Origin: Bacillus sp. 491mf
GTDB lineage: Bacteria > Bacillota > Bacilli > Bacillales > Bacillaceae_G
Length of the DNA: 61,756 bases
Direction: 5' to 3'
NCBI RefSeq assembly: GCF_900112415.1
Contig: NZ_FOLV01000021.1
Coordinates: 1-61,756, forward strand
The position numbers and the translations under genes were made by a program. The notes below the pieces were generated by a model, which was not told where the DNA came from, searched no databases, and was given only the letters and a program-made list of their open reading frames with translations. Shown piece after piece: positions 1 through 50,283 of the stretch (the stretch's first letter is position 1; the number at the start of each line of letters is the position of its first letter).

Positions 1-124
1 AGAGAGGCGCTTTTTGCCTCGTCCGAGGGGGCGAAACGACCGGAGATTCTAGCCGCTGGAGCTGGACAATGCTTTTGCCGAATTTTGAGGTGGGAGTATT
101 ACTGCCCGTTAATGCGGGACAAAA
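1..124. repeat. bcr1-like dispersed repeat, partial (cut by window edge)
   Basis: The segment ends in GGTGGGAGTATTACTGCCCG followed by TTAATGCGGGACAAA, a variant of the element end (ACTGCCC..GAATAGCGGGATAAA) seen at 10764-10788 and 50052-50092. Bases 1-80 match the internal module of the copies at 41583-41802 and 50052-50283 (CTAGCCGCTGGAGCTGGAC and the GGGGGCGAAACGACCG block). The left end lies outside the window. It overlaps the 3' end of the GT4 gene, whose stop codon it supplies. Confidence 0.75.
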
Positions 125-1214
125 CCTTTTCATACGCTTCATACGTATTTTCATATAAATTCCGTAATGAAAAATGAGAAGACGCATGGGTATATAATCG
201 CTCACCCATCTCTACTAATTCACCATTTTTCCACTTTTCATATGCCTCTTCTAACGCCCGAGCAAGCGCCGCAGCATCACCAATTGGAATAATCCAGCCA
301 TATGTATCATCAACAATCAGTTGTGACATATCACCAACATCTGTAGCAATAGAAGTTAAACGCTGATTTGCCCCTTCTAATAAAACAAGGGGGAAACTTT
401 CACTATACGATGTTAATAAATTGATATGCGCTGCGGCATATAAATTCTTTGCATCTGCACGATGTCCTAAAAATAGAACTTTATCTTCTAACCCTTTTTG
501 TTTCACTGCTTCTTTTAATTCATTCTCAATTGGCCCGTCACCAAGTAACAGCACTTTCATTTTGGGAATTGTTATATTTTGCAACGCTTCAAATAATATT
601 TCATGCCCTTTAACAGGATGTAAACGGGCTACCTGAATTGCTGTAAATACATCTTCTTGTATATCAAAATTCTCTTTTACATCATAAGGCTTGGCCGGCG
701 TACGATCATATTCAATTCCGTTATAGATTGTACAAATTTTCTCTTCTGGTACACCAAGCGTTACCGTATTCATCTTAAAACGCTCTGTAATAGCAAAAAA
801 TAAATCAACTTTCTTAAACGAACGTAAATTTAACTTTGTAAAAACCCAACCTTTTAAACCGCGCTTCATAAAATCTAGCGTTGGATCACTATGAATAGTT
901 GTAACCCATTTAGCATTTATCTTTCTGCTTAATAAAGACAGATAAAAGTTGGCCCTTGCACCGTGTGTATGCACAATATCAAAACCTTCTTTATTAATAA
1001 AAGAACGTATTTTTGAAAGAATAGATATATCATAACGAGATGATTGTGAAAAAACATGTACTTTTATCCCTAATGCTCTCGCTTCGCTTGCTATTACACC
1101 TTCTTCAAATACCGCTAATTCTACTACACCTTTTGGGAATTGCGATAAAAGTGAAATAATATGCGTTTTTCCGCCGCCTGTTTCTGCTCCAGCATTCATA
1201 TGTAACACTTTCAT
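99..1214 (-). CDS. GT4-family glycosyltransferase
   Basis: This is a 371-residue retaining glycosyltransferase of the GT4/GT-B type, expected to transfer a nucleotide-activated sugar onto a cell-surface glycan precursor at the cytoplasmic face. The N-terminal domain has the glycine-rich ETGGGKTH loop and DIVHTHGARAN. The C-terminal Rossmann domain has VARLHPVKGHEIL, LLLGDGP and the EX7E-like ESFPLVLLE that binds the donor diphosphate. The start is at 1214, where GGAGG lies 7 bases upstream; the in-frame ATG at 1232 overlaps that Shine-Dalgarno. Odd: the last residues (SRINGQ) and the stop are read from a dispersed repeat, so the C-terminus may have been replaced. The O-antigen ligase-like gene lies upstream on the same strand. 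Family is sure; donor and acceptor are unknown. Confidence 0.88.
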   Translation of the reverse strand: MKVLHMNAGAETGGGKTHIISLLSQFPKGVVELAVFEEGVIASEARALGIKVHVFSQSSRYDISILSKIRSFINKEGFDIVHTHGARANFYLSLLSRKINAKWVTTIHSDPTLDFMKRGLKGWVFTKLNLRSFKKVDLFFAITERFKMNTVTLGVPEEKICTIYNGIEYDRTPAKPYDVKENFDIQEDVFTAIQVARLHPVKGHEILFEALQNITIPKMKVLLLGDGPIENELKEAVKQKGLEDKVLFLGHRADAKNLYAAAHINLLTSYSESFPLVLLEGANQRLTSIATDVGDMSQLIVDDTYGWIIPIGDAAALARALEEAYEKWKNGELVEMGERLYTHASSHFSLRNLYENTYEAYEKVLSRINGQ

Positions 1215-1325
1215 CTTTTTTCCTCCATTCAATATATTTTCTCGTTTTTACTTTTTAACATATAGATTGCGGCTATACAGACAAAAAGACTCTACTACTG
1301 TCTTTCTCTCTTTGTTTGAACATCG

Positions 1326-1372
1326 CACCTACACATGACCAGACACTCTCGTCCACCCAAAAAGAAAGGGAT
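1326..1372. repeat. second-family dispersed repeat (GAGAGTGTCTGG type), partial
   Basis: Read on the minus strand this holds GGTGGACGAGAGTGTCTGGT followed by CATGTGTAGGTGCGATG, closely matching the start of the longer copy at 20945-21062. It sits between the GT4 gene and the O-antigen ligase-like gene. Confidence 0.5.
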
Positions 1373-1383
1373 TTTTATATAGC

Positions 1384-1421
1384 AAAAAATAAAAGCTAAC
1401 ATATTGCTAGCTCTTATTTTT
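1384..1421 (-). terminator. rho-independent terminator after the O-antigen ligase-like gene
   Basis: On the minus strand AATAAGAGCTA pairs with TAGCTTTTATT and is followed by TTTT, directly after the stop codon of the 1425-2792 gene. Confidence 0.7.
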
Positions 1422-1424
1422 CCA

Positions 1425-2792: not shown

Positions 2793-3066
2793 CTTTACCC
2801 CCTATAAATATAGTTGCTTCGTTCCAAATACCTATTATAGCATAAGTTCTTAATGGACTAGATGGGATTTTAATTGAATCATAAAATCCTTGATGGCGTC
2901 ATTTTCCCTCATATCCATTGTATTAACTTTGAAAACGACACTTTCAAACGCTTTCTTTCCTTATTCCTTCACTTTTTTTACATGTAGCGAAACAGCAATT
3001 GTTATTTTTATAACTTTAGTGTATATTCTTTCCTTGGAACATCTTTAGAAGGAAGGGATCGGAGCG

Positions 3067-3699: not shown

Positions 3700-3725
3700 T
3701 CTATTTTCATAAAAAGAATGACATA

Positions 3726-3757
3726 AAAACTCCTATGAGTGCATCATAGGAGTTTTA
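3726..3757. terminator. bidirectional terminator between convergent genes
   Basis: AAAACTCCTATGA and TCATAGGAGTTTTA form a near-perfect hairpin with T-runs on both strands. It ends inside the stop region of the minus-strand gene and serves both the TRIC gene and the GT39-like gene. Confidence 0.85.
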
Positions 3758-5367: not shown

Positions 5368-5880
5368 ATGGAAAAGAAATTTATGAGAGAGTCCAGGGCG
5401 ATAAAAACAACACGGGTTTTCCCAAATGACTTAAACAACCATCAAACATTATTTGGTGGAAAATTATTAGCAGAAATTGATAGCATTGCTTCTATCGCCG
5501 CTGCACGCCATAGCCGTCAGCATTGTGTAACTGCTTCTATCGATTCTGTTGACTTCTTAACACCAATTCATCAAACCGATTCTGTTTGCTATGAAGCATT
5601 CGTTTGTTATACAGGAAGATCTTCTATGGAAGTATTTGTAAAAATCGTTGCAGAGGATTTATTAGGCGGAGAACGCCGCATTGCTGCAACTTGCTTCATC
5701 ACTTTCGTCGCATTAAATAGTGGAAAACCAGCCTCTGTACCGGGTGTAATAGCTGAAACAGAAGAAGAACTCTGGTTATATAACACGGGTGAAGAGCGTG
5801 CAGAAAAACGAAAAATGAACCGATTAAAGAGTAAAGAAATGGCCGAAGTACTAACAATTCAAAAACCATGGAGTGTATAA
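5368..5880 (+). CDS. Acyl-CoA thioesterase, hotdog fold (YkhA/BACH type)
   Basis: A 170-residue single-hotdog-domain acyl-CoA hydrolase, cytosolic, releasing CoA from medium or long-chain acyl-CoA. The signature NDLNNHQTLFGGKLLAEIDSIASIAAARHS carries the hotdog helix and the catalytic Asp. VTASIDSVDFLTPIHQTDSV is the first core strand pair, and the GERRIAATCFITFVAL strand follows. The start at 5368 has AGGAG 8 bases upstream; the earlier in-frame ATG at 5329 has none. A basic tail (EKRKMNRLKSKEM) is typical of the family. It is monocistronic, with a strong terminator 29 bases after the stop. The physiological substrate cannot be read from sequence. Confidence 0.9.
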   Translation: MEKKFMRESRAIKTTRVFPNDLNNHQTLFGGKLLAEIDSIASIAAARHSRQHCVTASIDSVDFLTPIHQTDSVCYEAFVCYTGRSSMEVFVKIVAEDLLGGERRIAATCFITFVALNSGKPASVPGVIAETEEELWLYNTGEERAEKRKMNRLKSKEMAEVLTIQKPWSV

Positions 5881-5907
5881 TTTCACAACCTCTTTATTCT
5901 TATATAG

Positions 5908-5938
5908 AAGGAGCTGACTAAAAAGTCAGCTCCTTTCA
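5908..5938 (+). terminator. terminator of the thioesterase gene
   Basis: AAGGAGCTGACT and AGTCAGCTCCTTT pair perfectly around an AAAA loop and are followed by a T-rich stretch. Confidence 0.88.
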
Positions 5939-6077
5939 CTTTTCAATATGATTCAGCTCAGCGAATCGCCAATGTATTGCAAAGAACGGTTGATAACAGA
6001 AAAAAACTAACTTCAAAAGACACTTATGTACCTTTTGGGTCAGCTTCGTTTTTTATTTATGAAAATACGAAACTTTC

Positions 6078-6221
6078 TTATCTGCTATTTTTAATGCAAT
6101 GAATAACAGAATCCACAGTTGCTTTACAAAGTTTATCTGCGGTAAACTTATATCCGTAATTACTTAAATACAAATTTAGCTTCCAATGTTGAATTCCTTT
6201 CAATAGAAACGCAAAAGCATT
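6078..6221 (-). pseudogene. Open fragment with protein-like composition, no start codon (gene remnant)
   Basis: The thioesterase-flippase gap (5881-6254) holds a 47-codon open stretch on the minus strand that reads NAFAFLLKGIQHWKLNLYLS and then NYGYKFTADKLCKATVDSVI plus HCIKNSR before a TAA. It begins straight after an in-frame TAA and has no start codon or ribosome site, so if real it is the tail of a lost gene. I do not recognise the family. Its amphipathic, protein-like composition is the only evidence, and a chance open frame is possible. Beyond the thioesterase terminator I see nothing else in this gap. Confidence 0.35.
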
Positions 6222-6254
6222 TTATTTTAAGAACTATCAATGAAAGGTGAAATT

Positions 6255-7709
6255 ATGCAAAAATCAATTGTATCAAATGTTTTTTATAAACTATTGCTCA
6301 ACACCTTTAATATTATCCTTCCACTTCTAGTAGGACCATATGCATATCGAATGCTCGGGTCTCATTCAATGGGAACAGTTAACCTTAGCGAAACAATTTT
6401 TAATTATTTCTTTGTTTTTGCTACATTTGGTGTGTATCAATATGGCTTACGCGAAATTAGCTTAGTAAAAAACAATAAGAAAAAAACTTCACAATTATTT
6501 ACAAGTTTATATCTTATTAACTTTACAACTAGTATCCTTGCTTTAATCGCATTTTTACTTTTTAGTTACATTGGATATGAAAATAAAGAGGAGTTTCCTG
6601 TCCTTCTTATTTTTGGATTCAACTTTATTTCAAGTTTATTTTATGTAGAATGGTACAATGAGGCACATGAAAATTATGATTTCATTGCGAAAAAAACAGT
6701 TATTGTTCGTCTCATTTATGTTGTCCTTCTATTCATTTTCATTCATGGTGCAAATGATTATAAACAATATGCAAGTTTATTAGTTTTATCAACATTTTTA
6801 AACCATTTTATCAGTTTTATATATGTAAAACGTCAAGTTAAGTTCGATTTTTCTAACATAACCATTGTTCGACATATAAAACCATTATTTTTAGTTGTTA
6901 TCTTTTCAAATGCAAGTATCCTGTATACACAATTAGACCGATTTTTATTAGGAGAGTATGCTGGTAAATCCGAACTTGCTTACTATGTAATGGCTTTTCA
7001 AATTATGACGATTATTAATACACTTATGTTAAGTGTAATTCAAGTTACAGTTCCACGGCTCTCTTATTTATCAGGAAATGCAGATGAAAAAGAGTATGAA
7101 TCATTATTAAATAAAATCTCAAAAGTGTACTTTATTACATTATTCCCAGCATCTATTGGCTTAATGCTTATCGCTCATGGAGCTGTTGTTATTTACGGAG
7201 GAAATGAATTTGCTAACGCTGGTAACACGTTAGTTGCTTTTGCATTATACATGATTGCAATAGGTATCGAATCCATCTTATCGAATCAAATTATTTACGT
7301 AAAAAAGAAAGAAAACATTTTAGTACGTTTTTTATTCATTGGTGGTTTTCTAAACCTTATTTTAAATATCTCGCTAATCGTCTTTCATGTATTCACACCG
7401 ACAACAGCAATTTTTACAACTACGATTTCATACTGCTTGCTAGTTATACTGGAATATATATATGTAAAAAAGAAACTAAAAGTAAATTACACATTATTCG
7501 ATATGTCGAAACTAAAATATCTCTTCTATTCACTTACATTTGTACCATTATCATATCTCATCCGTATAACAATTTCAGGGAAAATCCTTTCTGTTCTAGT
7601 TACAATCATCACCTGCGGATGTGTATATGCATTGATTTTATTGATAACAAAAGATGAGATATTGTTTACGCTTTTAGATAAAGTGAAAGAAAAACTGAAG
7701 AAAAAATAG
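6255..7709 (+). CDS. Oligosaccharide flippase family protein (Wzx-like, MOP superfamily)
   Basis: A 484-residue protein with 12-14 predicted membrane helices. The N-terminus (NVFYKLLLNTFNIILPLLVGPYAYRMLGSHSMGTVNLSETI) is the classic start of polysaccharide flippases that move undecaprenyl-linked glycan units across the membrane. Also visible are LDRFLLGEYAGKSELAYYVMAFQ, the helix 7 region with the charged residues of the MOP lumen, and a lysine-rich C-terminal tail. The start at 6255 is preceded by AAAGGTG; an earlier ATG at 6240 overlaps that site. A GT2 glycosyltransferase follows 66 bases downstream on the same strand, so they probably form a two-gene operon. The glycan carried is not known. 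Confidence 0.88.
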   Translation: MQKSIVSNVFYKLLLNTFNIILPLLVGPYAYRMLGSHSMGTVNLSETIFNYFFVFATFGVYQYGLREISLVKNNKKKTSQLFTSLYLINFTTSILALIAFLLFSYIGYENKEEFPVLLIFGFNFISSLFYVEWYNEAHENYDFIAKKTVIVRLIYVVLLFIFIHGANDYKQYASLLVLSTFLNHFISFIYVKRQVKFDFSNITIVRHIKPLFLVVIFSNASILYTQLDRFLLGEYAGKSELAYYVMAFQIMTIINTLMLSVIQVTVPRLSYLSGNADEKEYESLLNKISKVYFITLFPASIGLMLIAHGAVVIYGGNEFANAGNTLVAFALYMIAIGIESILSNQIIYVKKKENILVRFLFIGGFLNLILNISLIVFHVFTPTTAIFTTTISYCLLVILEYIYVKKKLKVNYTLFDMSKLKYLFYSLTFVPLSYLIRITISGKILSVLVTIITCGCVYALILLITKDEILFTLLDKVKEKLKKK

Positions 7710-7775: not shown

Positions 7776-8597
7776 TTGAAATTCTCTTTAATCATGGCGA
7801 CTTGCGGCAGACGTGATGATATTATAGATTTACTAAAATCATTAGAAAAACAAACATATAAAGACTTTGAACTCATTGTAGTCGATCAAAACGATACACC
7901 GATCTCTAATTTATTTGATGACTATAAAGAAAAATTTCCAATCAATTATATATACACGCCAATCAAAGGACTCTCCCGTGCGCGGAACACAGGATTAAAA
8001 GTAGCTGATGGTGATATTATCGCTTTTCCAGATGACGACTGTATTTATGAAACGAATGTGTTAGAAAGCATTCAATACACGTTTAAACAAAATAAAAACA
8101 TTCATTTTATTTCTACCAACACAACAAATGTAGAAGGGACAGGCTCTTTAATACATGCTCCTAAAACAGATATTATTTTAAATAACAAATACGGATTCAT
8201 GGGCCCTTCCTTTGCCCTCTTCTTTATGAAACAGTTCGTACAAGATGTGGGAACGTTTGATGAAGACTTAGGGGTTGGAGCAGGAACAATTTACGGAGCT
8301 GGTGAAGAAACCGATTTTGTACTTCGCGGTATGAAGAATGGATATACAGGTTTATTTAAGAAAGACCTTTTCGTATATCATCCAGTAAAAGAAGAGGTCA
8401 TTAATGAGCAATCATTAAACAGAGCAATTTCCTATGCCGGTGGTTTCGGAAGAGTCATTCGCTTACATTATGGATTTCCTTACTTTTTACGTGCCATTGC
8501 CGCTGCCTCGTTCCGTACGATGCAAAACATCTCTAACGATAAAAGAAAATTCCATACCAATCGCTTAAAAGGGATTGTTAGAGGATATTTTAAATAA
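7776..8597 (+). CDS. GT2-family glycosyltransferase (GT-A fold)
   Basis: A 273-residue cytosolic inverting glycosyltransferase. The nucleotide-binding start FSLIMATCGRRDDIIDLLKSL and LIVVDQND are GT-A features. GLSRARNTGLKVADGDIIAF leads into PDDDC, the metal-binding DxD motif, and GAGTIYGAGEETDFVLRGMK holds the conserved acidic ED pair that acts in acceptor activation. It uses a TTG start with AAAGGAG 9 bases upstream. It follows the flippase, suggesting it builds the unit that the flippase exports. The stop codon TAA lies within the ATAAA end of a repeat element. Sugar specificity is unknown. Confidence 0.88.
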   Translation: MKFSLIMATCGRRDDIIDLLKSLEKQTYKDFELIVVDQNDTPISNLFDDYKEKFPINYIYTPIKGLSRARNTGLKVADGDIIAFPDDDCIYETNVLESIQYTFKQNKNIHFISTNTTNVEGTGSLIHAPKTDIILNNKYGFMGPSFALFFMKQFVQDVGTFDEDLGVGAGTIYGAGEETDFVLRGMKNGYTGLFKKDLFVYHPVKEEVINEQSLNRAISYAGGFGRVIRLHYGFPYFLRAIAAASFRTMQNISNDKRKFHTNRLKGIVRGYFK

Positions 8598-8650
8598 AGT
8601 TAAATGAACCATCAGTTGGTGTGTTCATGATTTCCCACTGATTAGAGGGA
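8594..8650. repeat. bcr1-like repeat, half element
   Basis: ATAAAGTTAAATGAACCATC and the arm CCCACTGATTAGAGG match the left half of the copies at 10693 and 44216 (ATAAAGTGAAAC..ATCAGTGGG..CCCACTGATTA). The ATAAA boundary overlaps the GT2 stop codon. The right half (ACTGCCC..GCGGGATAAA) is missing. Confidence 0.6.
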
Positions 8651-8694: not shown

Positions 8695-8879
8695 CAAAGG
8701 CGCAACTATCGTTTACATTGTTGCAATAAGGAAATTCCATAAAGTTACAGCCCCCTTTTCATAAGGAATACATGATAATTCAAAGATAAAAGATAGCATT
8801 ATAGTTAAGAATTTAGTATCATGATTCAAGATACTATTATAAATCGAAATTAAAAAACCTACCTAAAGCGTCTTTTTTT

Positions 8880-8955
8880 AGGTAAGTGAGAGCATCTGAC
8901 CATGCATGGGCTAAAGAAAGTGAATGCAGGTCATTTTTTATGCTGCGTATCAGTA
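8880..8955. repeat. second-family dispersed repeat (degenerate copy)
   Basis: GCATCTGACCATGCATGGGC and GTGAATGCAGGTCATTTTTT resemble the copy at 12312-12425 (GCAAGTGCAGGTCATGCC and the trailing TGTTCTGCATAGCAGTAAT). Similarity is partial. The rest of the 8695-9013 gap is AT-rich and I see nothing else in it apart from a small hairpin, CCTACCTAAA..TTTAGGTA, near 8857-8885. Confidence 0.4.
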
Positions 8956-9013
8956 ACTTTTATATTGAAAAATTAAAATGGTTTTATATATTTCAAACAG
9001 GGTGGAGGACAAT

Positions 9014-10692: not shown

Positions 10693-10788
10693 ATAAAGTG
10701 AGACTTTAATCAGTGGGGGTTTTCTTCATCCCCCACTGATTATTAGCCCTCACCAATCGGGCTTACTGCCCACGAATAGCGGGATAAA
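10693..10788. repeat. bcr1-like repeat, full short form with ATAAA ends
   Basis: The element begins ATAAAGTGAGACTTTAATCA and ends ACTGCCCACGAATAGC then GGGATAAA, so both ends carry the same ATAAA (TTTAT on the other strand). Inside are the arm pair ATCAGTGGGGG/CCCCCACTGAT and CCAATCGGGC. It is 96 bases long. The TTTAT boundary is the described hallmark of B. cereus group bcr1 elements; the family name is inferred, not checked. Confidence 0.8.
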
Positions 10789-10871: not shown

Positions 10872-12296
10872 ATGTTAAACATACAATGGAATCGTTTCAG
10901 TTCATTGTTAGCAAAGTGCCTCGTAATTTTGTGCTTACTTATCTTTGCTTTTTCTATTTGGAATTCTTATTTAACTGTTAAAGAAACTTTATTCGTTCGG
11001 ACACTTATTAGTGCTCCCATTATAATTATCAGCATGATTTTGTTAATACTGCTAACCTATCTTTGTAATACATACTTTTCAAAAACTATATTTATTATTT
11101 TATTAACAATTTGTGCGTTTATCACTCGATTCATTTGGATTTTAAAAATCCCAACACCAATTGAATCTGACTTCGCATTAATGTATGAAGCGGCTGTACA
11201 AGCCGCTCACGGTAACTATGGCTTTTCAAGTTCTCCATACTTTACAACATGGGTGTATCAACTGGGATTTACGATGTATCAAGCTTTCGTCATCAAATTA
11301 TTCGGTAACCATATATTTATTTTAAAGTTGTTAAATGTTCTTTATTGTACGGGAACTACACTATGCGTATATGGCATTACAAGCAAAATTTTTAATGAGT
11401 GGGCTGGACGTATAGCCGGACTATTATATGCCTTTTATATTCCAAGTATTATGATGAGCTCAGTTTTAACCAATGAACACCTTGCAACATTTTTATTTTA
11501 TTTAGGATTCTATTTATTAGTAAGCTTACACAATAAATATACTTGGATCTTTGTCGGAATTGCACTAGCATTTGGTGATATCATGCGCCCTTTAGGTAGT
11601 TTCATCTTATTAGCTGTTATCATTTATCTATTCATTCATGAATTTCTTGGAAAAGATAAAAAAACAATGTTTACTACAACAAAGAAACTTATTGGTATTC
11701 TTGTTGTCTTTTATGCTGTGCATTATATTGTAAGCTCTATATTCATTGCTACAGGAGTTACAAAGTATCCTTTATCTAATCGTGATCCTCTTTGGAAATT
11801 TGTCATAGGATTCAATTCCGAAACAACAGGAACATATTCAATGTCAGATGCTGAAAAAATTACGAGTCTGGAAATAGGCGAAGAACGAAAAGCAATCGAA
11901 ATAAAACTCATTAAAGAGCGAATTGCAGACAAAGAAAAGCTATTCACACTCTTTGGAGATAAATTTTCCTCTATGTGGGGTGATATTGATTCCGCTGGTT
12001 ACTGGAGTCTAAATCAATTAAATAAAAAAGAATTAATTGATACATCCATGGAGTATGAAAAATATGTGTATATGGCAACTATGTTATTTGGTGTGATAGG
12101 ATTATTATCCCTTCTTTTCACAAAACAGAAAAACCTTCAATATACATTATTTCTCTTACTTATTATCGGATATATAGCTGTGCATTTTTTAATAGAGATA
12201 CAGACAAGATATCGATATTTTATTATTCCTAGCTTCTTCATTATTCAAAGCTATGGAATCTATATGATTCATCAATATGTGAGAAAAAAACGATAG
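10872..12296 (+). CDS. GT39-like membrane glycosyltransferase (paralogue 2)
   Basis: A 474-residue polytopic protein of GT-C type. After two N-terminal membrane segments it has PTPIESDFALMYEAAVQAAH, with the acidic ESD expected near the active site, then LLNVLYCTGTTLCVYG, RIAGLLYAFYIPSIMMSSVL and TNEHLATFLFYLG. These blocks align almost word for word with the 3755-5080 protein, but the first loop differs (YFTTWVYQLGFTMYQAF) and a longer extracytoplasmic region (~300-385) is present. GGGGGGACC precedes the ATG. A complete repeat element lies 84 bases upstream. It probably transfers a lipid-linked sugar onto a surface polymer; donor and acceptor are unknown. Confidence 0.78.
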   Translation: MLNIQWNRFSSLLAKCLVILCLLIFAFSIWNSYLTVKETLFVRTLISAPIIIISMILLILLTYLCNTYFSKTIFIILLTICAFITRFIWILKIPTPIESDFALMYEAAVQAAHGNYGFSSSPYFTTWVYQLGFTMYQAFVIKLFGNHIFILKLLNVLYCTGTTLCVYGITSKIFNEWAGRIAGLLYAFYIPSIMMSSVLTNEHLATFLFYLGFYLLVSLHNKYTWIFVGIALAFGDIMRPLGSFILLAVIIYLFIHEFLGKDKKTMFTTTKKLIGILVVFYAVHYIVSSIFIATGVTKYPLSNRDPLWKFVIGFNSETTGTYSMSDAEKITSLEIGEERKAIEIKLIKERIADKEKLFTLFGDKFSSMWGDIDSAGYWSLNQLNKKELIDTSMEYEKYVYMATMLFGVIGLLSLLFTKQKNLQYTLFLLLIIGYIAVHFLIEIQTRYRYFIIPSFFIIQSYGIYMIHQYVRKKR

Positions 12297-12311
12297 AAAA
12301 GCATTTTTTAA

Positions 12312-12425
12312 AATGGCCTGGGAAGGACTGGCTATGTATAGAAGCGATCAGGACCTTTTCCTACCACATGCGAGGGTTTTAAAAGCAAGTGCAGGTCATG
12401 CCTTGTTCTGCATAGCAGTAATCAA
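12312..12425. repeat. second-family dispersed repeat
   Basis: GGACTGGCTATGTATAGAAG followed by CGATCAGGACCTTTTCCTAC and GTGCAGGTCATGCCTTGTTC recur at 20945-21062 and, inverted, at 44388-44452. It fills most of the gap between the GT39-like gene and the msrAB terminator. Confidence 0.65.
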
Positions 12426-14929: not shown

Positions 14930-15130
14930 ATAAAAGATCCATATTTATCCCGCTATTCACGGGCAGTAATACTCCCACCTCAATACCAAACGCAACGCCA
15001 AGGGCATGTCCAGCAGTTCCTAACGCTAATCCTTTTGCAATCAGATTCTTCACTTTAAACATTTTTAAGAATAATGCCCCCATAAGCACTTACAACACAG
15101 AGCGTCAAATATATGAAATCAGTTATAAAA
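14928..15130 (-). pseudogene. lrgB: lrgB remnant (antiholin-like protein), deleted and frameshifted
   Basis: The minus strand from 15083 reads [20 protein letters not shown] and then [15 protein letters not shown], which is the conserved core of LrgB ([15 protein letters not shown] in intact proteins). Just upstream, another frame reads [16 protein letters not shown], the preceding LrgB segment, so a frameshift lies near 15080. After GIE the frame runs straight into a bcr1-like repeat end ([12 protein letters not shown]) and a stop. The first two thirds of lrgB and all of lrgA are missing. The position, directly after lytS-lytT, is where lrgAB lies in relatives. Confidence 0.8.
14943..14979. 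repeat. bcr1-like repeat end inserted in lrgB remnant
   Basis: TTTATCCCGCTATTCACGGG followed by CAGTAATACTCCCACCTCA is the same end seen at 50052-50092 and, inverted, at 88-124. No second end is present, so this is a fragment; it fuses directly to lrgB-derived sequence. Confidence 0.75.
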
Positions 15131-15898: not shown

Positions 15899-17645
15899 TA
15901 TCGCTTCCCTCTTTTCTTTGAATTGGAATCGTAAAGGAAATCTCCGACCCTGCTTCCAGTTCACTTACAATATGAAGCGTTGTATCTTTTCCAAACAACC
16001 CCATTAACCGTTCATTAATATTGAATAATGCTGTTCCCGTTCCTTTCTTTGACGATACAACCGCTTTTCCTAACTGCTCTAATCGCTCTGGTTCAATCCC
16101 TTGTCCGTTATCTTTTATTTTGAAATGTACGCTGCCCTGCTTAGCATAAACATGAATTTCAACTTGACATAAAGGCTGTTTTTTGGGAAATGCATGGCGA
16201 AGAGCATTTTCTATTAATAATTGCAGCACAAACGGTGGAATCAAAATATTATACAGTTCGTCTTCAATATACATTTTCACTTCATATTTATTTGGAAATC
16301 TCGCTTGTTCTAACGACATATACGCATGCACATGATTTAATTCTTGTTCTAACGGAATGAGAAGCTGTCTTGCACCTTGTAAATTGCAGCGAAAATACAC
16401 GCTTAGCTGTAACAATAATTTCCTTGCTTTTTCTACATCTGTACGACATAAAGCAGAGACTGTATTAATCGCATTAAAAAGAAAATGAGGGTTAATTTGT
16501 GCTTGCAATGCCTTTATTTCCGCATCTTGCAACAATTTACTTTGCAATTCTGCTTCCCCAAGTTCAAGCTGCGTTGAAAAGATTTTCGCTAATCCTTCTG
16601 CCAGCTCCTCCTCTACGGGACTTAATGAATTGGGATTTTTAAAATAAAGCTTTAACGTACCGATAGTCTTTCCGTGAGACGTGAGCGGAATCACAATTGC
16701 CGCTTGTAATAAACACCCTCCATGCTGACAATTAATTTCTTCGCGTGACTTTGCTTTCATAATTTCCCCGGTCTTTAGCACATCTTTTGACAATTCGGTA
16801 ATTAAGCTATGGGAAGGAATATGATGATCAGATCCTAATCCAACATGTGCTAATATTTTTTCCGTATCTGTTAGAGATACTGCATCTGTTCCTGTAAAGT
16901 GGTGGATAATTTGTGCTACATGCGTACATGATTCTTCCGTTAATCCTTGGCGAAAATACGGAAGTGTTTTATCAGCAATGCGCAATACTTTATGCGTTTG
17001 TAATGCCTTCGCATGTTCTTCTTGCCGTAAAATAGACTGAATCATTGACATTAAAATAAAACTTCCGAAACCATTTACGATAATCATTGGGATTGCAATT
17101 GTTTTCACAATACTCCAGCCGTCATTGATTATGAAAAGAATCATAAGCATTTCCAGCGATACCATGCAGATACTAAGCATTGCAGAAAACTTAGGAGTTA
17201 CAACGCGATTTCGTTTTTGATATAAATAACCAATATAACCTGTCACAATCCCAGCCAAAATAGAAGAAATTGCACAGCTAAGTGCAGTCGTTCCTCCTAG
17301 TACATAGCGATGAATACCGGCTATAGACCCTACTCCTATTCCAACAATTGGACCTCCAAGTAACCCGCTAATCCCAATTCCCATAATACGCGTATTCGCA
17401 ATCGTACTAGAAGAAGAGACGCCCTGAAGCCAATTTTCATTCATAATCGTATTGCCAGAAATCTCAATACCTGTGTAGTTGCTTACAATTGTAAATAATG
17501 AAAATATGCCAATTAACATAAAGCTACCTTTATAGCCATCTTGCTTATGCAGCAGCCAACGGAACACTTTAATATGTGAAAGTAAAAATCCTAAAATAAC
17601 AATTAAACCAACGCGTTCAATCATCATTAATAATAAATTTCCCAT
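15879..17645 (-). CDS. lytS: Sensor histidine kinase LytS
   Basis: A 588-residue membrane kinase. An N-terminal 5TMR-LYT transmembrane domain (residues ~1-195) comes first, with GISGLLGGPIVGIGVGSIAG and AISSILAGIVTGYIGYLYQKR. A GAF domain (~230-370) follows, and then the His_kinase domain with phospho-acceptor QAQINPHFLFNAINTVSALC. A GHKL ATPase region closes it, with PPFVLQLLIENALRHAFPKK as N-box, DNGQGIEPERL as G1 and GTALFNINERL. It phosphorylates LytT, encoded downstream with a 20-base overlap. All key residues look intact. No conserved promoter element was recognised in the 290-base gap upstream. Confidence 0.93.
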   Translation of the reverse strand: MGNLLLMMIERVGLIVILGFLLSHIKVFRWLLHKQDGYKGSFMLIGIFSLFTIVSNYTGIEISGNTIMNENWLQGVSSSSTIANTRIMGIGISGLLGGPIVGIGVGSIAGIHRYVLGGTTALSCAISSILAGIVTGYIGYLYQKRNRVVTPKFSAMLSICMVSLEMLMILFIINDGWSIVKTIAIPMIIVNGFGSFILMSMIQSILRQEEHAKALQTHKVLRIADKTLPYFRQGLTEESCTHVAQIIHHFTGTDAVSLTDTEKILAHVGLGSDHHIPSHSLITELSKDVLKTGEIMKAKSREEINCQHGGCLLQAAIVIPLTSHGKTIGTLKLYFKNPNSLSPVEEELAEGLAKIFSTQLELGEAELQSKLLQDAEIKALQAQINPHFLFNAINTVSALCRTDVEKARKLLLQLSVYFRCNLQGARQLLIPLEQELNHVHAYMSLEQARFPNKYEVKMYIEDELYNILIPPFVLQLLIENALRHAFPKKQPLCQVEIHVYAKQGSVHFKIKDNGQGIEPERLEQLGKAVVSSKKGTGTALFNINERLMGLFGKDTTLHIVSELEAGSEISFTIPIQRKEGSDIENISS

Positions 17646-20744: not shown

Positions 20745-20944
20745 TTTTCCACTCCTTAATTTTAAAAAACCCATTTAATATATCTTAAAATTTACAAGAT
20801 TCTGTACGCACAAATTATCTTAACATATTTAACTATAAAATGTAATAATACCCATTGACCTTTCGATTAAAATTCCTTAACAATACCACAAATTTAGCTT
20901 ACTTATATATATAAATTAAAAAAACAACATAAAACCCTCTTCTT

Positions 20945-21062
20945 TTTTATGGGAGGACGAGAGTGTCTGGCTGTGCATAGGAGCGGTCAGTGCCTTTTCC
21001 TGCCACATGCAATGTTGTAAAACAAAGGGAGCGCCAGGAGCGGTCATGATGTATTCTACATA
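20945..21062. repeat. second-family dispersed repeat, longest copy
   Basis: GACGAGAGTGTCTGGCTGTG, CATAGGAGCGGTCAGTGCCT and TTTCCTGCCACATGC are followed by a second block with GCCAGGAGCGGTCATG. The blocks recur at 12312-12425, 44388-44452 (inverted) and 1326-1372. The 573-base gap 20745-21317 is otherwise AT-rich; no other gene is visible. Confidence 0.65.
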
Positions 21063-21317
21063 ACAACAATTTATATGCCGAAACATTAAAACGGATTTAT
21101 ATAGTTAAAAATTAAACATCTTCTTGATTCGGCCCAATCCCTATGTACTTCTAATCTCAACGTATCATTTATTTATCCATACTGCCTTCAATATCATTAA
21201 CTATTCATAGATTTTCATATTACTTATATACATAGAATATATATAACGTTGAATATATTCTTGTCCTTCTTCGAATTGACTGAGGTATAAACAATAAACA
21301 GTTAAGGGAGGAAATAG

Positions 21318-23256: not shown

Positions 23257-23498
23257 TTATCCACAGAAGTTATCCACATATCCACATACATCATCCACAT
23301 ATTGTGTGGGAATCTGTGTTCGACACAACATATATCGCCTTATTTTGACAAAATTCACATGTTTTTTTCTCATCACTTTCGTTATCCACATTGTGGATAA
23401 CTGGAGCTACTTCACATTCATCCACAATAATATCTAGCGCTAACTCTACATGTTCTAAACAACAAGGTAACTTCATAATTTCACCTCACTTATCCACA
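23257..23498. promoter_or_regulatory. DnaA-box cluster around yyzF
   Basis: Exact TTATCCACA boxes lie at 23257-23265, 23270-23278, 23382-23390, 23392-23400 (inverted, head to head with the previous one) and 23490-23498. One-mismatch boxes lie at 23278-23286, 23291-23299 and 23418-23426. That is eight boxes in about 240 bases outside oriC. In B. subtilis, clusters near the rlmH orthologue and elsewhere titrate DnaA and restrain initiation (established for that species); the same role here is inference. Confidence 0.8.
23291..23476 (-). CDS. yyzF: CxxH/CxxC small protein YyzF
   Basis: A 61-residue protein with CCLEH near the N-terminus and [12 protein letters not shown] near the C-terminus. 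The CxxH plus CxxC pair defines this small Bacillus family (YyzF) and suggests one zinc site. AGGTGAAATT precedes the ATG. Function unknown. It lies between the htrA-like gene and rlmH on the same strand. Several DnaA boxes fall inside its coding sequence, so DNA-level constraints act on it. Confidence 0.8.
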
Positions 23499-36287: not shown

Positions 36288-36390
36288 TATAAAGTGAAAC
36301 TTCCATCAGGGAACTTTTCTGCCTACCCACTGATGATTAGTTGAACCAATCGGCAGTTTATCCTCTACCGATATTTAATCGGGTCAACAC
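36288..36390. repeat. bcr1-like repeat, degenerate right half
   Basis: ATAAAGTGAAACTTCCATCA begins the element, followed by CCCACTGATGATTAGTTGAA and CCAATCGG. The other end is eroded (no clear GCGGGATAAA). It fills part of the 213-base gap between yybS and gdpP. Confidence 0.72.
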
Positions 36391-36488
36391 ACTTATTCCT
36401 CGCTTACAGAGTCTAATCGTTCCATTAAACGTAGGATAAAAGCTTCAATTTCTATGCTTCGTTACAAAAAGGTTTATATTTCACATAC

Positions 36489-39935: not shown

Positions 39936-40004
39936 ATCATTCACTCCTATGACTCAATCTTCCATCATTATAGATAGTAACGAATAAAATGACAAGCTTC
40001 ATCC

Positions 40005-40121
40005 AAATTTATCAAGTGAAGCAAATAGTCTTTTACAGACAATTTCTCCCCTTCTATCCTCTGCGGATTTCCTACAAATTTGAAGCGGGAATCTTCCTGC
40101 CCATTAATTGCTAATAAAAAA
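40005..40121. repeat. bcr1-like repeat, strongly degenerate
   Basis: Read on the minus strand it begins TTTATTAGCAATTAATGGGC and continues AGGAAGATTCCCGCTTCAAATTT, then GGGGAGAAATTGTCTGTAAA. It parallels TTTATCCCGCTATTCGCGGG/CAGTAATATTCCCACCTCAAATTTT and GGTGGGAGATAACTGCCCGTAAA of intact copies with many substitutions. Lies in the ychF-yyzM gap. Confidence 0.5.
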
Positions 40122-41582: not shown

Positions 41583-41802
41583 ATTTATCCCGCTACTTTA
41601 GAGCAGTAAGACTCCCATCTCAAGATTTTGAGAAAACGGTGTCCAGCTCTAGCGGCTAGATTCTTCGGTCGTTTCGCCCCCTCGGATGAGACAAAAAGTA
41701 CCTCTCTGCCTTTGGTGTGGGCGTCCTGCGATTCTGAGCGAGCCACTTCCGCTTTTCTAAAGAAGATAGGTGGGAGATATAACTGATGGTTAGTTAAACT
41801 TT
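41583..41802. repeat. bcr1-like repeat, long form with internal module
   Basis: TTTATCCCGCTACTTTAGAG at the left and GATGGTTAGTTAAACTTTAT at the right give TTTAT at both ends. Between them lie CTCCCATCTC/AGGTGGGAGA arms and a ~110-base module with GTCCAGCTCTAGCGGCTAG and GAGCCACTTCCGC, shared with 1-80 and 50105-50200. It occupies the second half of the 588-base mscS-yyaC gap; the first half (41255-41582) is AT-rich with nothing recognised. Confidence 0.78.
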
Positions 41803-41842
41803 ATATGAAATATACTAAATTCTATTAAAGGATGGATGCTTC

Positions 41843-42463: not shown

Positions 42464-43315
42464 TTCTCCCGCTAAAAGTTCTAAAATACGTTGCAAGTCA
42501 TCTTTATTGAAAAATTGAATTTCGATTTTTCCTTTTTCTTGTTTTGTTTCCTTAATTTTTACGGATGTTCCAAATCGATCTCGCAACACCGTCTCTTGTT
42601 CCTCAAAGAAGATATTTTTTTGTGGTTTTTGTCTCTTTGTTTCACGTGAAACATATTCATTCATTTGCTGAATAATTTGTTCCAACTGACGGACATTTAA
42701 CCCTTCTTCTTTAATTCGTTGCAATAAATTATTGATTTTTGTTTTATCTTTTAATGCAAGTAGTGTTCGTCCATGTCCCATAGAAATACTTCCATTGGCA
42801 ATCATATCTTGTACGAAAGGTGGGAGGGTAAGTAAACGAATGTGGTTTGCAATATGCGGTCTGCTTTTTCCAAGCCGCTTTGCTAACTGTTCTTGTGTTA
42901 TCTTAAGCTCCTCCATGAGCATTTGATAAGCTAATGCTTCTTCAATTGGCGATAAATCTTCGCGTTGCAAATTCTCTAGTAACGCAAACTCCATCATTTG
43001 TTGATCATTTAACTCTCGAACCACGGCAGGAACTGTTTTAAGATCTGCTTCTTTTGCAGCACGAAATCTCCGTTCTCCTGCAACGATTTCATACCCCTTA
43101 ATACTTTTCCGAACGATAAGAGGTTGTAAAATTCCATGTTCTTTAATAGATAACGCTAATTCTTGAATTGCTTCATTATGAAAATATTTACGCGGCTGAT
43201 ACGGGTTAGGACGCAATTGATTTATCTGCAATTCTTGAATTGTTTCTCCCTCTTTCACATCTAAATCTGGAAAAAACGCATTAATTCCTCTTCCTAGTCC
43301 TTTAGCCACCTGCAA
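42461..43315 (-). CDS. parB: Chromosome partitioning protein ParB (Spo0J)
   Basis: A 284-residue CTP-dependent DNA clamp that loads at parS and organises the origin region. N-terminal domain: [33 protein letters not shown] and the CTP-binding [42 protein letters not shown]-terminal dimerisation domain follows a linker. TTG start with AGGAAG upstream, overlapping the parA end by 14 bases. A perfect parS lies inside this gene at 42638-42653, as in B. subtilis spo0J. Confidence 0.96.
42638..42653. promoter_or_regulatory. parS site (perfect)
   Basis: TGTTTCACGTGAAACA, an exact 16-base match to the ParB site, within parB about 10 kb left of oriC. Confidence 0.97.
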
Positions 43316-44215: not shown

Positions 44216-44345
44216 ATACAGTGAAACCTCCATCAATGGGATGCTTTATTCCCCACTGATGGTTAGCCCACCCAATCGGGCGCATGCCAGCAGCTTTCTT
44301 CCCTGCTCTTCTCCAGCCTTTACTGCCCACGAATAGTGGGATAAA
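44216..44345. repeat. bcr1-like repeat, full short form
   Basis: It starts ATACAGTGAAACCTCCATCA and ends ACTGCCCACGAATAGTGGGA plus TAAA, with CCCACTGATGGTTAG and CCAATCGGGC between. Same orientation as 10693-10788 and 130 bases long. Lies in the noc-parA gap. Confidence 0.78.
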
Positions 44346-44387
44346 AATGGACTTATACCTTGCTTCCTTTCTTTGTTTTAAAACTTT

Positions 44388-44452
44388 GTGCGTGGCAAGA
44401 AAAGGTCCTGACCGCTCCTATACATAACCAGTCCCCCCTGACCATTTAAAAA
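44388..44452. repeat. second-family dispersed repeat, inverted copy
   Basis: GCAAGAAAAGGTCCTGACCG and CTCCTATACATAACCAGTCC are the reverse complement of blocks at 12312-12425 and 20945-21062. It lies 43 bases from a bcr1-like element. Confidence 0.65.
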
Positions 44453-44505
44453 ATTGCTTTTCTGCCTTTTTTCATAGAGTTACTAGTTTTTAATGCATGA
44501 CAAAA

Positions 44506-44546: not shown

Positions 44547-45395
44547 TTACTTCTTCTTTGGAATTTTAATTGTAATTTGATAGTATTCATCAAATTCTTC
44601 TTCTTCTGAATTTACATTTAAACCACTATTCGCAACCATTTGTAAAGATTGACGAATCGTATTCATTGCAATACGCATATCGCGACTTACCGCTTTTTGT
44701 TTTGCTTTTCGTTTCGGCTTCGTTTCTTCTAACAATTTAGCAATTCTATCTTCTGTTTGCTTCACATTCAATTGCTTTTCAATGATTTCTTGTAAAATTG
44801 TTAATTGAATCTCTTTATTTTTAAGTGGAATAAGAGCACGAGCATGACGTTCTGTAATACTCTTCTCTAATAGAGCTTGTTTAATTTCTTCAGGTAATTT
44901 TAATAGTCTCAACTTGTTCGCAATTGTAGATTGTCCTTTACCTAGTCGCTGTGCTAATGCTTCTTGCGTTAAATTATGTAATTCAATTAACTTTTGATAA
45001 GCAACAGCTTCTTCAATTGCTGTAAGTTCCTCTCGTTGCAAGTTTTCAATTAAAGCAACAGAAGCAGTCTCAGTATCGTTCAAATTTTTTATAATAGCCG
45101 GAACAGTTTCCCAACCTAATTTTGTAGCAGCTCGAAAACGTCTTTCACCAGCAATAATCTCATATTTTCCCTCGCCATACTGCCGAACAACAATTGGTTG
45201 AATTAATCCATGTGTATGAATTGTAAGAGCAAGCTCTTCAATACGCGCATCATCAAAAATTGTCCGTGGCTGATAGCGATTAGGAACGATATTTGCTAAC
45301 GAAATTTGTTTGATTTCTTCATGGCTTTCTTCTTGTAGTGCTAATTCAGCCTCTTTATCTCCAAAGCCAAATAAACGAGAAAATGTGTTTTTCAT
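44547..45395 (-). CDS. noc: Nucleoid occlusion protein Noc
   Basis: A 282-residue ParB paralogue that binds NBS sites and blocks FtsZ assembly over the nucleoid. The N-terminal [15 protein letters not shown] is the amphipathic membrane-targeting helix typical of Noc. Then [35 protein letters not shown] (CTP motif), and [30 protein letters not shown]. The recognition helix QSTIANK differs from ParB (RPHIANH), as expected for NBS rather than parS. The start at 45395 follows AAGGTGGTGG; the longer open frame runs through a parS-like site and a repeat and is not coding. Confidence 0.95.
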
Positions 45396-45440
45396 ACATA
45401 TTCCACCACCTTGAATCCTATTGAATACTCTATACAAAAA

Positions 45441-45456
45441 TGTTTCATGTGAAACA
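45441..45456. promoter_or_regulatory. parS-like site upstream of noc (15 of 16)
   Basis: TGTTTCATGTGAAACA, one base from the consensus and still perfectly palindromic except at the centre. It lies 45 bases before the noc start, about 7 kb from oriC. Confidence 0.8.
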
Positions 45457-45464: not shown

Positions 45465-45620
45465 CTTATTCCACAGTAACGGACAGTAATATCCCCATCT
45501 CAAAATTTCCTCATACATAAAGTTAGGCAGGTAAAAATAAACTGTCCACAAAAGCACAATTTGTTGAACTAGCGATTAGTAAGAGGTTCAGCTTCCCTAC
45601 TAATCAAAGTTTCCCTTTAT
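45465..45620. repeat. bcr1-like repeat, upstream member of a tandem pair
   Basis: CTTATTCCACAGTAACGGAC and AGTAATATCCCCATCTCAAA open it; AAACTGTCC, GTTGAACTAGCGATTAG and CTAATCAAAGTTTCCCTTTA close it with TTTAT at 45616-45620. It is diverged but keeps the full order of blocks. It lies in the 388-base noc-rsmG gap. Confidence 0.7.
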
Positions 45621-45768
45621 TTCTTTCGCTCTAACGGGCAGTAAGCCCACGCCTCAATATTGTAAGAAATCTAAAAAGATAGGTGGTGGATAACTGCCTG
45701 TAAAAGCTCGATTCGTTCAACTAAGCATCAGTGCTAATAAACAAGCTTACTGATATATAACTTAATCT
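45616..45768. repeat. bcr1-like repeat, downstream member of a tandem pair
   Basis: Starts TTTATTTCTTTCGCTCTAAC followed by GGGCAGTAAGCCCACGCCTC, then AGATAGGTGGTGGATAACTG and GTTCAACTAAGCATCAGT. It shares the TTTAT at 45616-45620 with the previous copy, so the two are head to tail. Confidence 0.7.
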
Positions 45769-45783
45769 TACGTCTAATAAGAT

Positions 45784-48414: not shown

Positions 48415-48433
48415 TTTCCATTCCTCCTTACAA

Positions 48434-49810
48434 TTACTTTCCTAAACAAAATTGAGAGAATAACTGATCAATTAAGCTTTCGTGTACAGTGTCTCCCGTA
48501 ATTTCACCGAGTATTTCCCATGTTCTTGTTAAATCAATCTGTACCATATCAATTGGCACGCCGCTGTGAATAGCCGCAATTGCATCACCAATCGTCTTTT
48601 CTGCTTGTGTTAATAAACCAATGTGACGAGCATTCGATACATATGTCATATCAGTCGCTTCAATTGCTCCTTCAAAGAAGAGATCGGCAATTGCCCGTTC
48701 TAGCTCATCTACACCTTTCTCTTCAAGTAAAGCTGTTGTAATAACACGAGCTGAACCCGCCAATTTTCCAACGTACTCCATGTCAATTTGCTGCGGTAAA
48801 TCTGTTTTATTTACAATGACGATAAAGTCTTTTCCTTGTACCGCTCGGAATAACTCTTCATCCTCACTTGTTAACGCTTCGCTATAATTTACAACAAGAA
48901 GAACTAAATCTGCTTTATTCATCATCTCTTTTGAGCGTTCGACACCAATTTGTTCTACAATATCATCTGTCTCACGAATACCAGCTGTATCAATCAATTT
49001 AAGCGGTACACCGCGCACGTTCACATATTCTTCAATAACATCTCGAGTTGTTCCTGCTATATCTGTTACAATTGCCTTCTTTTCCTGTACAAGGCTATTT
49101 AATAGCGATGACTTTCCAACATTCGGTCTTCCAATAATAGCCGTTGCAATTCCTTCGCGCAAAATCTTCCCTTGCTTTGAAGTTTGTAACAACTTTTCAA
49201 TTTCTGACTTAACATAAGTCGCCTTCTCAATTAAAACACCATGCGTCATTTCTTCTACGTCATCGTATTCCGGATAATCAATGTTCACTTCAACATGAGC
49301 TAACGTTTCTAAAATCTCTTGTCGCAAACGACCAATTAATTTTGATAATCGGCCTTCCATTTGATTAATCGCAACATTCATTGCACGATCTGTTTTAGCA
49401 CGAATTAAATCCATAACCGCTTCTGCTTGCGATAAGTCAATACGCCCATTTAAAAAAGCACGCTTTGTAAATTCTCCAGGCTCTGCCAAGCGAACACCTT
49501 GTGATAAAATAAGCTGTAATACTTTATTTACAGAAACAAGGCCACCATGACAATTTACCTCAACAATATCCTCACGCGTAAATGTCTTTGGTGCCCGCAT
49601 AATCGAAACCATAACTTCTTCAATCACTTTATTTGTATCTAAATCCACAATATGCCCATACTGAATTGTATGAGATGGAACTGTCGTTAAATCTTTTCCT
49701 TTAAAAATACGGTTTACCTTTTCTACCGCATCATCTCCACTTACTCGAACAATGGCAATTGCACCTTCCCCAAGAGCTGTGGAAATCGCAGCAATTGTAT
49801 CAAATTCCAT
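48434..49810 (-). CDS. mnmE: tRNA modification GTPase MnmE (TrmE)
   Basis: A 458-residue protein. N-terminal folate-binding domain (1-118) has [21 protein letters not shown] and [15 protein letters not shown]. The G domain within the helical domain has [38 protein letters not shown] and NKTDLP. The C-terminal FCLGK carries the invariant cysteine needed for modification. K-dependent GTPase working with MnmG. AGGTGAAAGAAC precedes the ATG. A DnaA-box-bearing hairpin and a repeat separate it from jag. Confidence 0.97.
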
Positions 49811-49936
49811 GTTCTTTCACCTCACTTGCTTATTTCTCTATATTTCAACACGATTTTTTCTTTCACTAAATTATTAGGATACCATAACGAAACTTCGTAA
49901 AAAAGAATAATAACTTATTTTATTATGTCCTCACCT

Positions 49937-49991
49937 AAATCGCACTAAACTTATGCACAGTGGATAAGTTTAGTGCGATTTTTTATCCACA
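49937..49991. promoter_or_regulatory. long hairpin with DnaA boxes in the mnmE-jag gap
   Basis: AAATCGCACTAAACTTA (49937-49953) and TAAGTTTAGTGCGATTT (49965-49981) form a perfect 17-bp stem with loop TGCACAGTGGA. One-mismatch DnaA boxes TTATGCACA (49951-49959) and AGTGGATAA (49959-49967) fill the loop, and an exact TTATCCACA lies at 49983-49991. A T-run follows on the plus strand only. In B. subtilis the trmE-jag gap carries a DnaA-box cluster. Confidence 0.7.
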
Positions 49992-50021
49992 GATCATTTC
50001 TCTGTCTTCATATTTTATCCA

Positions 50022-50055
50022 GTAAAAAACCGGCACTCAAACGAGTTACCGGTTT
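50022..50055 (-). terminator. terminator of the rpmH-rnpA-yidC-jag operon
   Basis: Minus strand AACCGG..ACTC GTTT GAGT..CCGGTT followed by TTTTAC. It is separated from the jag stop by an inserted repeat whose TTTAT end overlaps this stem's flank. Confidence 0.8.
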
Positions 50056-50283
50056 ATCCCGCTATTCGCGGGCAGTAATATTCCCACCTCAAATTTTGGT
50101 GAAAGCATTGTCCAGTTCTAGTGGCTAGAATGTTCGGTAGCTTCGCCTCTTCCTAACATTCTGGACGAGCCACTTCCACTTTTCTTAAGAAGTTAGGTGG
50201 GAGATAAACTGCCCGTAAAAGTTTGATTGATTCAACTAGCCACCCATCTAGAATCAATTCCTCAAGATGGGTGTTTCATGTTA
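50052..50283. repeat. bcr1-like repeat, long form with internal module
   Basis: TTTATCCCGCTATTCGCGGG starts the element; GGTGGGAGATAAACTGCCCG, GATTCAACTAGCCACCCATC and GATGGGTGTTTCATGTTAT end it at the jag stop codon. The arms GGGCAGTAATATTCCCACCT and AGGTGGGAGATAAACTGCCC are inverted repeats enclosing a ~110-base module (GTCCAGTTCTAGTGGCTAG to GAGCCACTTCC). It lies between jag and its terminator. Confidence 0.82.

Follow-up and report, generated by a model that had tools for sequence, protein, structure and literature searches.

Repeats near dnaA in Bacillus sp. 491mf fit bcr1, a mobile element found across Bacillales and possibly moved by single-strand transposition

Introduction

The window analysed here, the whole of a 61,756-nucleotide stretch of Bacillus sp. 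491mf (contig NZ_FOLV01000021.1, assembly GCF_900112415.1), is a stretch of chromosome carrying what we take, from position, to be dnaA (52842–54185 in the open reading frame (ORF) calls) and a noc-like gene (near 44547–45416); the gene after dnaA encodes the DNA polymerase III beta subunit. To the left of dnaA lie short repeats whose sequence fits decayed copies of bcr1, the published mobile repeat of the Bacillus cereus group. The name stands for Bacillus cereus repeat 1, which was reportedly described by Okstad (2004), Klevan (2007) and Kristoffersen (2011). Here we report bcr1 from other Bacillales, three loci with empty sites, hairpins with covarying stems and an orientation that follows the replication fork in three relatives, a combination suggesting that the element may be moved in trans by a single-strand transposase.

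Results

Copies in the window

An initial annotation of the DNA had placed eleven bcr1-like copies or parts in the 50 kb left of the replication origin (oriC), with a constant order of blocks and with TTTAT at both ends of complete copies. All eleven places hold bcr1-like DNA to the left of dnaA, with the blocks in the order described, but their quality is mixed (Table 1). When a covariance model derived from copies in other genomes was run unfiltered over the window, it gave seven matches at E <1e-6, each of them within 50 kb to the left of dnaA, while the remaining four places (8594, 14944, 1–123 and 41584) are fragments or insert-carrying copies. TTTAT is exact at both ends in four of the eleven (10693, 36289, 39984 and 41584), the others having one end lost or altered. 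The two copies of the head-to-tail pair have the TTTAT at 45616–45620 in common, and the copy at 41584–41804 has repeats D2 and D3 in common with that at 50053. Six copies lie between ORFs and five touch an ORF of at least 90 aa: 1–123 by 25 bases, 8594 and 50053–50284 by 4 bases each, the 14944 fragment inside a mechanical 103-aa ORF and the 45465 copy by overlap with an upstream extension of the noc-like ORF.

Table 1. bcr1-like copies and fragments in the window
Feature	Position	Strand	Observations
Edge-cut copy	1-123	-	left end TTTGTCCCGC at 123; part of TGTCCAGCTC-type insert; 81% identity to 41584-41707 over 124 bp
Weak right-end remnant	8594-8640	-	6 edits to right-end motif; 72% identity over 62% of consensus; no model match
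Short complete copy, 96 bp	10693-10788	-	TTTAT at both ends; lacks central hairpin; E 2.4e-14
Left end only, ~40 bp	14944-14983	+	95% identity to left end at 50053; model E 0.31
Degenerate copy	36289-36440	-	TTTAT at both ends; E 1.7e-7
Degenerate copy (40005 in the initial annotation)	39984-40118	-	TTTAT at both ends; E 1.8e-7
Copy with nested TGTCCAGCTC..CGCTTTTCT repeat in first-hairpin loop	41584-41804	+	right part shortened; TTTAT at both ends; not among model matches
Copy with altered centre	44216-44345	-	E 2.6e-13
First of head-to-tail pair, upstream of noc-like gene	45465-45619	+	E 4.1e-13
Second of head-to-tail pair	45616-45766	+	E 1.7e-17 for 45620-45766
Copy with nested TGTCCAG-type insert in first hairpin	50053-50284	+	E 8.7e-7 for 50053-50227

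Range across Bacillales

We equate the repeats with bcr1 from the TTTAT motif and length, having compared them with its published description rather than with a consensus. That description gives a TTTAT motif (PMC6542083) and a length of 147–167 bp (PMC2267715), and two papers, of 2019 and 2021, describe bcr repeats as restricted to the B. cereus group (PMC6542083, PMC8725734). The copies described here resemble published bcr1 in motif, length, intergenic position, hairpin fold and mobile features; they differ in range, which includes other Bacillales, and in a replication-linked strand bias in three genomes.

Among 19 genomes of the family, the right end CCCACTGATNNAAGTTTCACTTTAT occurred with at most 3 mismatches at 82 places in genome G008 (77% identity with the window across 1.8 kb of one conserved gene), at 19 in G003 (Ectobacillus panaciterrae, named through its locus L003) and at 4 and 2 in two others; it was not found in the other 15, and a reversed control gave 0 in 19/19. 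From the 101 pattern places of G008 and G003, 74 right ends were read in 60 stretches. Forty belonged to copies of 141–159 bp, 28 of them bordered by TTTAT on both sides as bcr1 is said to be; 4 belonged to copies of 124–139 bp, 8 to copies of 94–110 bp and 11 to copies of 48–56 bp, for one the nearest left end, 351 bp away, was that of a neighbour, and for 10 no left end was recognised.

The covariance model, built from 37 copies (36 from G008 and G003 and one from a viral contig), was run on 299 genomes of the order and matched 96 at E <=1e-3, a lower bound because no genome had more than 10 candidates scored; among 398 genomes of the class it matched 39 at E <=1e-6, and the two samples overlap. 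No genome sampled in the family search was nearer than 80% to the window, and the DnaA proteins of seven tested genomes were 75–83% identical to that of the window; by these sampled identities the matched genomes probably lie outside the B. cereus group. Named matches among 80 loci around the noc-like gene came from two Psychrobacillus loci, L071 and L077 (125 and 31 bits), from L043 of an uncultured Metabacillus (77 bits) and from L067 of Amphibacillus (42 bits). bcr1 is thus not confined to the B. cereus group, as had been claimed of its range rather than its structure, but is also present in Ectobacillus, Psychrobacillus, Metabacillus and many other Bacillales, a distribution that goes past the literature consulted.

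At gathering score, no Rfam family, group II introns included, matched the element, either in the window or at three loci. A phage collection gave no bcr1 match, as did some pattern searches of viral sequences, and plasmids held no bcr1 copy, a weak match on a Bacillus arachidis plasmid standing beside others that arose by chance.

Anatomy and fold

The consensus of 31 copies, one per genome, reads TTTAT, CCCGCATTAA, a first hairpin whose base and upper stem are 9 bp each, then a linker, CTAA, a 13-bp hairpin (for example CCATCAGTGGGGG / CCCCCACTGATGG), AAGTTTCAC and TTTAT. In the intact form ten bases ending in TTAA follow the first TTTAT and precede the long hairpin ACGGGCAGT..CCCCCACCT / AGGTGGGGG..ACTGCCCGT, and full-length copies span 141–159 bp. 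Read directly, the ends (TTTATCCCGC versus ATAAAGTGAAAC) form no terminal inverted repeats.

The hairpins covary between genomes, the element thus having a conserved secondary structure. In a structure-blind alignment of the 31 copies, 28 of them chosen by the score of a model that already held the fold and so favoured paired copies, 96.0% of cells were paired and 69 carried double changes, A-U to C-G and G-C to C-G swaps included, against 17.4 ± 3.6 in shuffled and 6–18 in slid alignments. The 37 copies found by pattern, the pattern covering the 3′ arm of the last hairpin, gave 20 double-change cells against 6.8 ± 2.4 shuffled, with paired cells at only 85.6% against 84.6%.

The bases at the 5′ feet of the two hairpins are nearly invariant (TTAA in 30, 29, 31 and 31 of 31 copies; CTAA in 31/31 at all four positions). 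TTTAT was exact at both ends in 23 of the 31 copies and in 28 of the 40 full-length copies from G008 and G003, for which the right end belonged to the search pattern; in the rest one end had changed. Across the 71 counted copies of the two sets, which have two copies in common, both ends were TTTAT in 51 and both were non-TTTAT in 0, so that a fixed site fits better than duplication of a varying sequence. The short forms (~54 and ~105 bp) seem to have arisen later, by internal deletion between the repeats CCCCCAC and GTGGGGGAT.

In three window copies the loop of the first hairpin holds a further repeat, TGTCCAGCTC..CGCTTTTCTT (41637–41778, 50105–50200 and 1–80); a 20-mer similar to it occurs in 8 of the 80 named loci around noc, and other bcr1 copies (L115, L239, L241) hold differing inserts at differing places. 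One-direction arrays of 3–4 right ends in steps of 121–152 bp were seen in genome G084 (C1, 640163–640562, 2465535–2465822 and 2607324–2607649).

Empty sites

The annotation had read the element as non-autonomous and mobile, duplicating its target, a view that comparison with empty orthologous sites upholds as to mobility: a single TTTAT, or its complement, stands at the empty site of all three loci compared. At a viral site, 27 contigs, many of them near-identical and with internal variants of 100–158 bp, carry the element as ..TTTTTAATTTTTATTTAT, then CCCGC..CACTTTAT, then AAAAATGAG, and four contigs (L123–L126) read ..ATAATTTCTATTTATAAAAATGAG, with one TTTAT. In genome G262 the element (CCCGC..CTTTAT) stands between GTTGTTCAATTTAT and CTATCAAAGATTC, and genome G240, which carries extra DNA farther upstream, reads GTTGTTCAATTTATTCATGAAAGATTC, again with one TTTAT. 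The Metabacillus locus L043 holds two identical 144-bp copies head to tail with five bases in common, plus a remnant after AATCAATAAA; its empty counterparts in Metabacillus niabensis (L074) and a Bacillus sp. metagenome-assembled genome (L075) read AATCAATAAAGG with one ATAAA, and in a base-level reading that left out four further aligned loci, ATAAT stands at the equivalent position in L036, L042, L061, L063 and L064. Psychrobacillus L071, compared with L066 and L077 as a candidate fourth site, was set aside because its flanks are too diverged. The empty sites support mobility and are a further result that goes past the literature consulted; their single TTTAT fits target duplication and insertion behind a fixed TTTAT equally well.

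Orientation and replication

In three complete-looking genomes (one long contig, dnaA located, terminus taken as the antipode, sizes rounded for G186 and G097), and counting complete mismatch classes only, the TTTATCCCGC strand runs with the fork in 144 of 186 copies (p 2.8e-14): 74/84 in G256, 22/27 in G186 and 48/75 in G097. The strand running with the fork is the lagging-strand template, which IS200/IS605 elements are described as preferring (PMC5371812, PMC7290912); this trait of theirs is thus present in three relatives of the window, and its occurrence in bcr1 goes past the literature consulted.

A gene control was made for G256, with scripted ORFs at 70 of 122 pattern places (all 48 with at most 1 mismatch plus 22 others) and 8 places near the terminus excluded. 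Elements ran with the fork in 54/62 cases compared with 84/122 flanking genes, and did so in 6/7 cases where both neighbours opposed the fork, in 20/24 with mixed neighbours and in 26/29 where both agreed. Since elements follow the fork even where genes oppose it, gene direction does not explain the bias in this genome, where the elements are mostly intergenic (6/70 inside an ORF call).

Density near the origin

The density that the annotation had noted near the origin is locally high, at seven matches (six events if the pair is counted once) per 50 kb, but it is a property of the window and not a general origin preference: by the same mismatch classes, the three genomes above have 0 copies within 50 kb of oriC against 5.0 expected, and the spread along their arms is compatible with uniform (Kolmogorov–Smirnov p 0.30, 0.28 and 0.11). 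Published counts, 57–63 copies in each B. cytotoxicus genome (PMC8725734) and a maximum of 130 for B. mycoides (PMC6542083), would correspond to about 0.7–1.2 per 50 kb with assumed genome sizes and other search criteria. Against that rate the window has a Poisson probability of 9e-5 to 1.5e-3, to be read in the knowledge that the window was picked for its density and that the criteria differ.

Search for a transposase

A Y1_Tnp match was present in all 14 bcr1-rich genomes tested, of differing kinds and in G120 as fragments only. Judged by length and score, both Y1 genes of G256 look RAYT-like and both of G097 look IS200-like. Scanning 35 Y1-gene sources with the covariance model (30 of 54 Y1 places, four further loci and the stretch L220) gave one moderate match (L260, 281–426) and one weak match (L267, 499–553), neither at the borders of a Y1 gene.

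Several candidate partners were considered and rejected. A motif scan of 12 Y1 loci, looking for a RAYT partner, gave no clear bcr1 ends, and the repeated IS200-like elements of G097 and G186 have borders that differ from bcr1. An IS605-type element of G240 and G262, of which the left end only was seen, stands behind TTTAT yet its left end is unlike that of bcr1. An autonomous long version did not appear either, 0 of the 74 right ends of G008 and G003 having their nearest left end 0.4–2.5 kb away.

L220 (G008:C29:286500–306400) holds four RAYT-like Y1 genes at 5701–7635 and 16747–17364, three of them in tandem, with GGTGCCTGTCACC palindromes nearby; the IS605-type element behind TTTAT lies at 1282–2766 of L259 and 1283–1844 of L260, in two bcr1-rich genomes, and has the same target as bcr1.

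Other features of the window

Another dispersed repeat family, GGACTGGCTATGTATAG.., aligns over 51–237 bp, is unlike bcr1 in sequence and occurs at 12286–12389, 20891–21125, 44371–44472, 1324–1374 and 8837–8997. Five perfect DnaA boxes (TTATCCACA) fall within 242 bp at 23257–23498, 29 kb left of dnaA, and could form a DnaA-binding cluster outside oriC; the whole window has 10 boxes against 0.8 expected. Sites resembling the parS motif lie at 45441–45456, 42638–42653 and 28633–28648 (one exact, two with one mismatch), and the tandem bcr1 pair begins ~8 bp after the one at 45441–45456. The best relatives of the noc-like protein in the searched collection were from Ectobacillus (76–78%), and PurA is close, not identical, to 4m0g, presumably a B. 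anthracis protein; the DNA probably comes from the B. cereus group or from something near it.

Discussion

The lack of inverted repeats, the subterminal hairpins and the fixed TTTAT give bcr1 a likeness to elements transposed in trans in the manner of IS200/IS605. We regard it as moderately probable that bcr1 is a widespread Bacillales non-autonomous element moved in trans by a single-strand HUH/Y1, IS200/IS605-like transposase. Such an enzyme would bind the two subterminal hairpins on the TTTATCCCGC strand, with TTAA and CTAA at their 5′ feet guiding cleavage at both TTTAT; the single-stranded element would leave the lagging-strand template and insert 3′ of another exposed TTTAT. Since the element itself ends in TTTAT, the right end of a resident copy could serve as target, which may be how head-to-tail arrays with one common TTTAT arise.

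Accounts of IS200/IS605 elements and of PATEs, which use TnpA in trans, agree with bcr1 in the lack of inverted repeats and in subterminal hairpins at both ends (PMC6006769, PMC7290912, PMC5371812), as well as in insertion 3′ of a fixed pentanucleotide, one copy of it in empty sites and a lagging-strand bias. The guide tetranucleotides of IS200/IS605 stand 5′ of the hairpins (PMC6006769), where bcr1 has conserved bases that we predict to be guides. By these accounts bcr1 is unlike them in that we found no cognate TnpA or parental IS, in its long first hairpin (within ~155 bp), in that both of its cleavage sites would be TTTAT and in that pairing of the guides with TTTAT is only proposed. REP/REPIN sequences, thought to be spread in trans by the Y1 enzyme RAYT (TnpA-REP), likewise form many small hairpins per genome (PMC6006769, PMC3733652), and RAYT-like genes occur in several bcr1-rich genomes; the feet of bcr1 hairpins are TTAA and CTAA, however, not GT[AG]G, and no bcr1 copy borders the RAYT-like loci that were scanned.

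Several findings weigh against a single-strand Y1 mechanism. Among the 35 Y1-gene sources no transposase gene is bordered by bcr1 ends, so that we infer the class of enzyme from anatomy and strand bias only; with RAYT-like genes in G256 and IS200-like genes in G097 there is no single Y1 type in common, and the RAYT-like genes of G008 (L220), tried as partners, have their own GGTGCCTGTCACC palindromes. TTAA and CTAA differ from the apparent guide that the TTTAT-targeting IS605-type element of G240 and G262 has; the final A of TTAA is able to pair, and since 25 of the 95 unpaired columns do not vary, these tetranucleotides do not stand out as guides by conservation alone. As to the fold, the choice of most of the 31 copies by a fold-aware score counts here too, a small fourth helix (AGCCC/GGGCT) left out of the 31-copy test showed 0 double changes and 73% pairing in the 37-copy set, and G.T versus A.C asymmetry, tried as a test of the folding strand, was not consistent (27:17 and 41:57). 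The strand bias is modest in G097 (64%), is 7/11 in G084 (p 0.55, arrays merged by eye, left out of the 144/186) and is absent from the window, where four of seven model matches run with the leftward fork and three against; an orientation linked to replication is also described for Tn7 and several IS families (PMC5371812).

A classical DDE-type miniature inverted-repeat transposable element (MITE), moved by a double-strand transposase in trans with a 5-bp target duplication preferring TTTAT, would give the single TTTAT of empty sites just as well, and bcr1 is listed among MITEs in the literature (PMC3733652). We nevertheless think it unlikely: TTTATCCCGC and ATAAAGTGAAAC are not inverted repeats, the two end 5-mers never depart from TTTAT together in either copy set, single-end differences looking like decay, and the strand bias would require a fork-targeting factor. 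Rather more doubtful is site-specific recombination, in which a tyrosine or serine recombinase would put a circle with one TTTAT into a chromosomal TTTAT. This too accounts for the single TTTAT and for tandem arrays, but not by itself for an orientation linked to the fork, and for recombinases of these kinds a 5-mer amid variable flanks is very short as a site. A mechanism resembling such recombination has been named as possible in print (PMC6542083).

Improbable in our view is an RNA-borne mode, the fold acting in bcr1 RNA that is reverse-spliced or copied into single-stranded DNA at forks. Some group II introns insert into such DNA, the lagging-strand bias would fit, and the fold covaries strongly; bcr repeats have been placed in mRNA in two strains (84 of 165 and 62 of 155; PMC3446304). 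However, the element has no Rfam match at gathering score in the window and the three loci, its wobble pairs show no consistent strand asymmetry, and TTTAT at both ends would be left unexplained. Least probable of all is an immobile regulatory RNA or terminator, selected place by place with its orientation following genes. Covarying hairpins, a mostly intergenic position and the bcr elements described in untranslated regions (PMC3446304) would suit it; empty sites at three loci, tens to more than 100 right ends per genome and fork orientation kept in G256 where both flanking genes oppose it do not, and immobility is largely refuted, a secondary RNA function being possible.

Conclusions

We found no paper tying bcr1 to IS200/IS605 in the literature searched, which was largely without subscription journals and partly seen in excerpt, and such a link may be in print elsewhere. 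We consider it an evenly balanced proposition that bcr1 is one branch, the best known, of a superfamily of single-strand, non-autonomous transposons spread throughout Bacillales, with TTTAT as target and right end, TTAA and CTAA as guides, a Y1 enzyme acting in trans and possibly differing between genera, and an orientation that records the direction of replication. If this is true, the mover of bcr1 can be sought in genomes with at least 100 copies, and the spread of the element among genera would be usable for tracing transfer. The presence of bcr1 would no longer be a marker of the B. cereus group, and the element would offer a short natural test case of how fork direction shapes genomes.

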